From assembly GCA_937923575.1 (NCBI GenBank), contig CALDUL010000001.1, forward strand, positions 1 through 64,000: 64,000 bases of DNA. Direction: 5' to 3'. Positions 34,069-37,170 of the stretch are shown piece by piece. The notes under the pieces were generated by a model, which had not been told where the DNA came from, did not search any database, and saw nothing but the letters and a program-made list of their open reading frames with translations. This DNA is from an uncultured Algimonas sp. GTDB lineage: Bacteria > Pseudomonadota > Alphaproteobacteria > Caulobacterales > Maricaulaceae. Positions within the stretch are counted from its first letter, which is position 1, and the number at the start of each line of letters is the position of its first letter. Both the position numbers and the translations under genes were made by a program.

Positions 34069-34203
34069 GGCGCAAATTGGGCAAAAAAGCCGACGGGTTC
34101 GCCGCGCATAAACGCGCCATTAACCACATCATCCCTAACCGACCTTAACGAATTGGGGACTTGGCGTAGCCGATTCCCCGATGAACTTGGGATGGAGTTC
34201 GCC

Positions 34204-35358
34204 ATGAAAATTTTCCGCAAGCAGCCGAGCCTCGCCGGCGAACAGGATGCGTCGGCTGCGTCTGATTCGATTGCCGCGCTGTCGTCCGCGCTGACAGAAG
34301 GCGCCGCGCAGCAGGAAATCGCCGCGCGTCGTCTGGCCGGACTGTCCGATACCATCGCCCGCCTCGACGCCAGCCGGCGCGAAGCCAAACGTCTCGATGC
34401 GGAAGTGACGCGACTGACCGCAACGCTGTCTGAAGTCGAGCGCAAGTTTTCAGCCAAATCCGCATGGGCTGCCGAACAGTCCGCGAAATATCTCAACGTC
34501 AAATCCGAACGCGACGAGCTGCGTCAGGAGTTGGAGGCCGCCAAGGCCGCGCGCGCCCAACTCGCCGACAAGCACACGGCGCTGAGCCAGGATCACGCGA
34601 CACTGGAGCTGGAATTGTCCTCCACGCGCGCGCAACGCGACGCGGCAGCGCAGAAGGCCGAGCTCGCGGAGATGGCCAAGGCCAAGCTCGCCGAGACCGA
34701 CGCCAAGCGCGCGTCTGCCATGAAAGCCCAAGCTCACCGCATCACCGAATTGTCCAGCGCGACAGAAGACCTGACCGCGCGGCTCGCCGACAAGACGGGT
34801 GCTCACGACCAGTCGCTGACGTCCCTGCGAGAGCTGCGGACCGAACACGCCCAGACCAAGGAAAAGCTGATCGAGGGGCTGAACGCGCTGCAGACGGCCG
34901 AATATCAGCTGACTCAAAAGGACGCCGCCCATCAGGACGCGATGAGCCGCCGTGCCGATGAAGTGACCGCCCTGCGCCGCCAGGTCGAGCAGCTCTCCGC
35001 CGAGCTTCGCATCAAGGACGGCATGGGCGAGCATTACGGCCGCGATCTCGGTGAGCTGCGCACGGCTTTGCAGGCGGAACGCGAACGGGTCGGCGCGACC
35101 GAAGCCCGGCTGCGCGATGCGAGCGATACAGAAACTCGCCAGGCCAGCGCACTGGCGCAGGCCAAGATCGACTATGACGGGCTGGCGGAGAAATTCTCCG
35201 ACGCGCTGCGCGACATCGAAGCGCTGCGCAAAGTCAACCAGATGCAGCGGAAGACGCTGGAGCGCTATGCCGAGCTGGGCGCTGCGCCGCAGGGGCGCGG
35301 TACGGGCGCTGTCGATCCGGCTCGCCCCGTCCGCATTGTGCAGCAGCGGAGCGCTTAG
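34204..35358 (+). CDS. Long coiled-coil protein (filament/crescentin-like in architecture)
   Basis: A 384-residue protein, almost entirely alpha-helical heptads from about residue 25 to 355, rich in Ala, Glu, Lys, Arg and Gln (for example EVERKFSAKSAWAAEQ, LRRQVEQLSAELRIKDGM). The N-terminus MKIFRKQPSL is a short basic head and the last 30 residues are non-helical. No transmembrane segment or enzyme motif. Rod plus short head and tail recalls intermediate-filament-like crescentin proteins of alphaproteobacteria, but coiled coils are poor evidence of homology. The start has a GGAG site 6 bases upstream. Confidence 0.75.
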   Translation: MKIFRKQPSLAGEQDASAASDSIAALSSALTEGAAQQEIAARRLAGLSDTIARLDASRREAKRLDAEVTRLTATLSEVERKFSAKSAWAAEQSAKYLNVKSERDELRQELEAAKAARAQLADKHTALSQDHATLELELSSTRAQRDAAAQKAELAEMAKAKLAETDAKRASAMKAQAHRITELSSATEDLTARLADKTGAHDQSLTSLRELRTEHAQTKEKLIEGLNALQTAEYQLTQKDAAHQDAMSRRADEVTALRRQVEQLSAELRIKDGMGEHYGRDLGELRTALQAERERVGATEARLRDASDTETRQASALAQAKIDYDGLAEKFSDALRDIEALRKVNQMQRKTLERYAELGAAPQGRGTGAVDPARPVRIVQQRSA

Positions 35359-35381
35359 TCACTTACACATTTTTGAGAGCT

Positions 35382-35402
35382 CCCGCCGATTTGATCGGCG
35401 GG
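35382..35402 (+). terminator. Possible terminator hairpin after the coiled-coil gene
   Basis: A perfect 9-bp stem CCCGCCGAT / ATCGGCGGG with a 3-base loop, 24 bases after the stop. The following bases (TCTATCTC) are a poor T-tract, so termination efficiency is uncertain. It is the first member of the hairpin series that follows. Confidence 0.5.
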
Positions 35403-35462
35403 TCTATCTCCAGAGCGCTCGGTGGGATGCGGGGGTGCTGACTACGACCGCTTTGCGCTCGT

Positions 35463-35567
35463 CCCGGCTCATAAGCCGGGGTTCCAGCTGCGCTGGAAGG
35501 TCCTTCGGACGCTAACGAATGAACCACTACAGCCCCTCCGCTTCGCTGCGGAGCGGGTTTATTCGTT
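35463..35567. repeat. Series of adjacent hairpins upstream of xseA
   Basis: Four further inverted repeats stand in a row: CCCGGCT/AGCCGGG (35463-35480), TTCCAGC/GCTGGAA (35482-35498), GTCC/GGAC (35500-35510), and a nested element with a 12-bp outer stem AACGAATGAACC/GGTTTATTCGTT (35514-35525 with 35556-35567, one wobble) enclosing CTCCGC/GCGGAG (35536-35553). The block ends 41 bases before the xseA start and has no coding potential I can support. Confidence 0.65.
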
Positions 35568-35607
35568 GTGGGCGAGGGGAGCGATCCGGGTTAGAGCAAG
35601 GTTTCCT

Positions 35608-37170
35608 ATGTCCAACGCCCCCGAATTCACTGTCTCCGAGCTGGCCAATGGCATCAAGCGGACGATCGAGGACACTTACGGCCGTGTGCGCGTGCGGGGC
35701 GAGCTGGGGCGTGTCACCATCGCCAAGTCCGGGCATTGCTATCTGGACCTGAAGGACGACCGCGCGGTCATCAATTCGATCATCTGGAAGGGTGCCATGG
35801 CGCGGCTGGCGATGCGTCCCGAGGAAGGGATGGAGGTCATTGCGACAGGCAAGATGTCGACCTATCCGGGTCGTTCCAACTACCAGCTGGTGATCGACCG
35901 CATGGAGCTGGCAGGCGAGGGCGCGCTGATGGCGCTGTTGGAAAAGCGCAAACGGGCGCTGGCCGCCGAAGGGCTGTTCGCTGAGGACCGCAAACGCGCT
36001 TTGCCTTTCATGCCAAAGACGATTGGCGTCGTGACATCGCCGACGGGTGCCGTCATCCGCGATATTCTCCACCGCATCGAGGACCGCTTTCCGACCCGTG
36101 TGCTGGTCTGGCCCGTGCTGGTCCAAGGAGACCGCGCGGCGCAGCAAATCGCAGGCGCGATCACGGGCTTCAACAATGCGGATGGCTTCCCGCGTCCCGA
36201 CGTGCTGATCGTTGCGCGCGGTGGCGGCTCGCTCGAAGACCTCTGGTGTTTCAACGAGGAAGTGGTCGTGCGCGCCGCTGCCAATTCGCGCATCCCGCTT
36301 ATCAGCGCGGTCGGGCACGAAACCGACACCACGCTGATCGACTATGTCTCTGACAAGCGTGCGCCGACGCCCACGGGCGCGGCCGAAGTGGCTGTGCCGG
36401 TGAGGGCGGACTGGCTGGAAACGGTCGATGATTACGGCCTGCGCATGATGCGGGGGCTGCGCCGCTCCGTCGCGGACGCCACGACGCGCCTGCGTGCGGC
36501 TCGCCTGCCGAGCCTCGACGGTGTTCTGGCAAATCCGACGCTGCGGCTGGAGGCAGCACGGCTACCGCGGTTCGAGACGTTTGTGGCGCCCAAGCGTGCG
36601 CAGCTCTCGCGCCTGCATCTCACAAGCCCCGCCAGCCTGATCCGCACCAAGTCGGCCCAGCTGTCTGCGGCGCGCCTGCCGATCCCCGCGCGTCTGCTGG
36701 AGTCGTCACAGTCGCGTCTGCAACGCACGACGGAGCGGCTAGGCGCAGCGGCGATGCGCCAGACGGAGCGCCAGCGTAACCAGCTCGCACGGGTCACGCT
36801 TTCCGCTCAGCCCATCCGCCGCGATATCGATGCAAAGTCGGACCGGCTCGCGCGTATTACGGCCTCGCTCGGGCGCGCAGGCCGCAGTGCGCTGGAGGCT
36901 GATCGCGCGCGGTTGGATCGCGCGAGCTCCTTGCTCGATGCGCTCTCCTATCAGGGTGTGCTCGCGCGCGGCTACGCCATGGTGACCGATGCAGACGGTG
37001 CCGTCGTGCGCTCTGCCGAGCAAGCTATGCCGGGACAGCCCGTGACGCTGACCTTCGCCGACGGAAAACGCGCCGCCGTGATCGACGGGGCGACAGCAAA
37101 GAAGCGCAAGGCGTCCAAGCCCAAGGCATCCAAGTCCAAATCTGCGACAGATCAGGCCAGCCTGTTCTGA
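35608..37170 (+). CDS. xseA: Exodeoxyribonuclease VII large subunit
   Basis: A 520-residue protein. The N-terminal OB-fold (about 6-105; [30 protein letters not shown]) is followed by the catalytic domain ([62 protein letters not shown]) and a long helical region. With XseB it degrades single-stranded DNA from both ends. The tail is Lys/Ser-rich ([14 protein letters not shown]). The start ATG 35608 has AAGG 7-8 bases upstream; a longer frame runs back through the hairpin region and is not credible. xseB is not in the window. Confidence 0.96.

Follow-up and report, generated by a model that had tools for sequence, protein, structure and literature searches.

A multicopy array of paired but variable hairpins near gene 3′ ends in Algimonas

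The gap upstream of xseA

The window analyzed here is a 64,000-nucleotide stretch of an uncultured Algimonas genome. Within it, a gap of 249 bases separates the stop codon of an upstream gene (35356–35358) from the ATG of xseA (35608). An initial annotation described inverted repeats in this gap, and every one of them was found again in place. The features are as follows.

34153–35358, + strand: upstream gene, likely encoding a coiled-coil protein (no family above its cut-off)
35382–35402, + strand: separate short palindrome, CCCGCCGAT-TTG-ATCGGCGGG, with 9-bp arms (35382–35390/35394–35402)
35445–35583, + strand (model orientation): composite hairpin-array repeat (match to covariance model R1 at 35445–35580, 145 bits)
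35445–35461, + strand: S1 stem, CGA-c-CGC/GCG-c-TCG (96% of cells paired in 23 copies)
35463–35480, + strand: S2 hairpin, CCCGGC-TCATAA-GCCGGG (arms 35463–35468/35475–35480; 6 bp, or 7 with a G.T)
35482–35498, + strand: S3 hairpin, TTCCAGC-TGC-GCTGGAA (arms 35482–35488/35492–35498, 7 bp)
35500–35510, + strand: S4 hairpin, GTCC-TTC-GGAC (arms 35500–35503/35507–35510, 4 bp; 98.9% of cells paired)
35514–35525/35556–35567, + strand: S5 outer stem, 12 bp with one wobble, variable among copies
35536–35541/35548–35553, + strand: S5 inner stem within the type-1 core, 6 bp
35568–35583, + strand: tail GTGGGCGAGGGGAGCG, the side that meets a stop codon in other copies
35608–37170, + strand: xseA, exodeoxyribonuclease VII large subunit (PF02601, E 1.5e-100)

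The five hairpins first recognized had been read as one series. Four of them do belong together, in the composite repeat at 35445–35583, along with the S1 stem that had been overlooked; the first, at 35382–35402, is a separate REP-like palindrome. When the block was compared with its own genome by BLAST, 27 matches were returned, most of which start at window position 35445 and extend over as many as ~145 bases; a few cover the first hairpin alone. These boundaries define 35445–35583 as one repeat unit and 35382–35402 as a different one. The short palindrome has 15 exact pattern matches, distributed over 4 of 10 genomes. On the minus strand, 35381–35402 also matches the abiF RNA (20.7 bits, E 0.19, below the Rfam gathering threshold of 37), most likely by chance.

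The composite unit spans ~140 bases and carries five hairpins, which in the model orientation follow the fixed order S1, S2, S3, S4, S5; they vary between copies yet stay paired. Consensus stems are CGAnCGC/GCGnTCG for S1, CCCGGC/GCCGGG for S2, CCAGC/GCTGG for S3 and GTCC/GGAC for S4, the S4 loop being short or long depending on the copy. S5 consists of a variable outer stem around one of two cores, either type 1 (CACTACAGCCCCT..GGAGCGGGT, as in the window) or type 2 (CCGTGCTC..CGCGCGCCG). A palindrome of the CCCGCCGAnTTGATCGGCGGG type is nested in the S5 loop of several copies and closely resembles the first hairpin of the window. Folding of the gap beats dinucleotide shuffles on either strand, with −114 versus −96.5 kcal/mol (z −3.1) on the plus strand and −102 versus −83 kcal/mol (z −4.2) on the minus strand, the latter corresponding to the gene-sense orientation of most other copies. 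Searched against Rfam at gathering and permissive thresholds, the block gave no match at gathering and nothing convincing below, and thus falls into no known Rfam family by that threshold.

Copies, genomes and placement

Covariance model R1, built from 23 copies, detects about 24 strong copies in this genome, plus weak ones, and 21–22 in a congener (G011), where several contigs end within copies, so that the copy counts are lower bounds. Of the three readings that the initial annotation offered, a composite repeat element is borne out by the ~24 copies, the modular hairpins and the additional nested palindrome. The remark that this was not one repeat multiplied holds for the arms inside the block; the block itself is a multicopy repeat, present at dozens of gene ends within a small group of marine alphaproteobacteria.

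Among 137 family genomes, G014 alone adds R1 matches at E ≤ 1e-5, and apart from a few diverged Algimonas and Litorimonas copies the remaining genomes lack the repeat. A scan of the genome collection with the S5 core matched Hellea sp. MAG-189, one Algimonas and one Litorimonas record, and no others. The same pattern had no match in viral contigs, and a viral origin was rejected on that basis. G014, G017 and G013 contain diverged copies that keep the core and differ in their arms. Two of these lie upstream of xseA in G014, ~680 bp apart (L061, 1501–2303), and no Rfam family was found in the long stretch between them. In G017 a copy overlaps the stop codon of a gene that, read by eye, is presumably infC, and in G013 a copy follows tRNA-Ser. 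Type-2 cores in G014 and G017 (L129, L132 and L136) follow a different block that they have in common, near GGGCTTTCGCTGCCGCTC, which suggests a sister subfamily. A literature search for repeats in Algimonas and its relatives found nothing.

The S5 end typically adjoins the stop codon of an opposite-strand open reading frame, mostly at −14 to +25 nt (33 of 34 distances, compiled by hand). Copies also stand next to the 3′ ends of stable RNAs, namely tRNA-Ser(TGA), tRNA-Ser(CGA), tRNA-Ser(GGA), which is itself cut by a contig end, tRNA-Ala and the SRP RNA. About four copies, including the one at xseA, are exceptions located before a start codon; judged by eye from their first codons, we take the genes behind the others to be efp (L043), hsp20 (L047) and rpsF (L050). 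Divergent pairs of copies are frequent, with a spacing of roughly 100–420 bp.

Several recurrent features accompany the copies. Three different tRNA-Ser genes (TGA, CGA and GGA) precede elements (L046/L107, L051/L063 and L064), and the pairing of tRNA-Ser(CGA) with an element is present both here and in a Litorimonas-type genome. Copies that follow tRNA or SRP RNA genes (L046, L054, L107, L114, L130 and L064) have in common a motif close to TCGAGATCACGCC in gene sense, ~20 nt before S5. The spacers beside other elements (L009, L011, L012, L014, L018 and L019) carry another recurrent palindrome, CTCCCTCnAGGGAG, and a REP of the CCCGGGnTTGACCCGGG type occurs in the spacers of further copies.

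Just past S1, about 9 of the 17 congener copies with flanking sequence have a canonical gene-sense intrinsic terminator (GGTCGGGCTnnCGCCCGGC followed by a T-rich stretch), as do two copies of this genome. Placement and terminator together indicate that the array is usually read as a 3′ UTR in the S5-to-S1 direction, corresponding to the minus strand in the window. The same two features, and the parallel with REPs found close to stop codons, make it plausible that the array could act as a 3′ transcript boundary. Some E. coli REPs lie ≤15 nt from a stop codon and are reported to stall ribosomes there (PMC12306157).

These observations bear on the suggestion that the block is a leader, terminator or antiterminator acting in cis on xseA. 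The element does immediately precede the start of xseA, and two diverged copies lie upstream of this gene in G014. Nearly all other copies, however, adjoin the 3′ ends of unrelated genes, tRNAs or the SRP RNA, most relatives have no copy before xseA, and the G011 contig is cut at the corresponding spot; the intrinsic terminator that follows many copies also reads opposite to xseA. We therefore regard control of xseA as highly improbable, and this copy does not appear to be a dedicated switch for that gene.

Covariation and turnover among copies

In a plain MAFFT alignment of 23 copies, not model-fitted and with the structure written from one copy, pairing is kept in 93% of cells and covariation scores 0.308, compared with 0.092 in shuffles. 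For 52 matches, in an alignment fitted to R1 and hence leaning towards that model, the score is 0.358 versus 0.096 in shuffles, and changes on both sides occur in 24 of 31 pairs and in 212 cells; because the copies are related and come from one or two genomes, the cells do not count as independent events. Six pairs each in S3 and in the S5 outer stem are changed on both sides among the 23 copies, and one S2 pair is G-C in 11 and C-G in 10 of them. S1 barely varies in this set, and its double changes are seen in the 52-match set. One-sided standard changes are rare (about 18 cells). The block had been expected to be a plain repeat if it combined many copies with no covariation; the copies are indeed many, but covariation is strong and without strand asymmetry.

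Selection on one RNA strand should favor G.U on that strand. The 44 mismatched cells of the model strand comprise 23 GT/TG and 21 AC/CA, with no departure from 1:1, an equality that gives no indication of selection on a single RNA strand.

Nine copies could be paired with orthologous positions in G011, where the gene-side flanks are 86–94% identical. Across these nine pairs, orthologous copies are no more alike than random ones, with mean identities of 0.75 in S1–S4 and 0.70 in S5 compared with 0.78 and 0.66 for random cross-genome pairs. Several orthologous pairs have very different yet complementary S5 arms (AACAGAAATACC versus AGCCGATATACC) or the other core type. Mean identities within and between genomes are similar (0.73, 0.79 and 0.76), and G011, G014 and G017 lack the element at several further orthologous sites. 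Across copies, the types of S2, S3, S4 and S5 arm are not significantly associated (p 0.2 to 0.9), whereas S5 arm and core are linked (p<0.0005), in a test of limited power that covered 35–44 copies in crude classes, two type-2 copies being labeled type 1. The position, partly conserved between species, is inherited more faithfully than its content, the hairpins assort as units and the stems are paired without strand bias.

One explanation is that the array is a functional structured RNA, a conserved 3′ UTR module for stability or termination whose fold is under selection in the RNA transcribed from the adjoining gene. The strict orientation and distance to stop codons, the copies at stable-RNA 3′ ends, the conserved gene-sense terminator and the strong stem covariation all accord with it. 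It nevertheless appears unlikely to us, as G.U is not enriched over A.C on either strand, orthologous copies are not more alike than random ones, and the repeat is lacking in most relatives and at several orthologous sites.

Relation to known repeats and a mosaic interpretation

We compared the repeat with known systems. It works like a BIME/REP mosaic and lacks the features that define REP/RAYT systems, CGTC-tagged REPs and CIR. REP, BIME and REPIN elements of E. coli and Pseudomonas are likewise extragenic palindromes near gene 3′ ends that form inverted pairs and mosaics, and the repeat shares with BIMEs its divergent pairs, its 3′-end placement and its nested or adjacent palindromes. It differs in unit size (~140 bp and five hairpins, compared with 20–40 bp and one hairpin for a REP), in having tens rather than hundreds of copies, and in its lack of a RAYT/Y1 transposase. 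The Y1 transposase (RAYT, PF01797) was found in none of nine genomes, the window genome being 85% complete, while control genomes matched; a RAYT-driven REP was rejected accordingly.

CGTC-tagged repeats are also alphaproteobacterial, dimeric and without a dedicated transposase, and consist of a CGTC tag, an 8–9 bp stem starting with A-T pairs, a 4–5 nt loop and a CCA tail (PMC3733652). The short palindrome at 35382–35402 is similar to them in the length of its stem and in its loop and tail. The composite element, in contrast, is not a single CGTC-tagged 8–9 bp stem opening with A-T pairs: CGTCC precedes S2 in 36 of 46 copies, but the S2 stem has 6 bp, starts with C-G, encloses a 6-nt loop and has no CCA tail. 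The CIR repeats of Caulobacter, from the same bacterial order, are similar in size, copy number and intergenic folding (about 110 bp, about 20 copies, intergenic, with two-arm RNA folds; PMC2229807). Identity with CIR was rejected, as the GANTC (CcrM) site conserved in a CIR loop occurs in 2 of 46 copies. An integron attC site was considered because a variable-arm hairpin follows stop codons, and was rejected by inspection: the feet do not fit RYYYAAC/GTTRRRY, AGC/GCT is found in many copies, and the copies are dispersed rather than arrayed.

MITEs such as RUP, ERIC, Correia/NEMIS and RPE resemble the repeat in being non-coding, dispersed, strongly folded and 100–170 bp long. Unlike them, it has a nearly fixed orientation to gene 3′ ends and no recognized terminal inverted repeat or target duplication; no inverted repeat spans the block, and the empty sites are too divergent to define a duplication. 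That the repeat is a non-autonomous, selfish or neutral mobile palindrome of the MITE or REP type, functionless and merely tolerated at gene ends, would fit its patchy distribution, its high copy number in two genomes only, its presence or absence at orthologous sites and its REPIN-like divergent pairs. We nonetheless consider this quite improbable in view of the near-fixed orientation, the lack of a recognized terminal repeat or target duplication, and the nine genomes free of Y1 transposase.

The block is probably one copy of a REP/BIME-like mosaic of palindromes, a dispersed repeat restricted to this lineage, whose hairpins are exchanged between copies and which may serve a function at 3′ ends. 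Hairpins would be swapped by short-tract recombination or gene conversion acting at the conserved joints between stems. Perfect stems could be maintained in the DNA itself, through a process such as replication template switching, which has been described as both creating and preserving hairpins (PMC8794818); selection on one RNA strand would then not be the main cause. Inherited position, assortment of units and unbiased pairing would all be accounted for by hairpin exchange combined with palindrome perfection in DNA; among the copies compared, no recombination tract, exchange tract or mobility was seen directly. Transcribed from the adjoining gene, the array might set a strong 3′ limit to mRNAs and stable RNAs by blocking 3′ exonucleases and read-through, and the strict stop-codon orientation and conserved terminator suggest a role in RNA beyond upkeep in DNA alone.

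More tentatively, we propose a gene-3′-end element with interchangeable hairpin cassettes, in which the position is inherited, hairpins may repeatedly give way in the DNA to different versions that remain complementary, and RNA-style covariation could arise largely without RNA selection. Covariation commonly counts as proof that an RNA is functional, and here strong covariation coexists with symmetric mismatches, independent hairpin assortment and orthology that is lost within positions otherwise conserved. Searches for new RNAs with covariance models can return such repeat families, which calls for caution, and this family makes RNA selection directly testable against palindrome upkeep and exchange in DNA.
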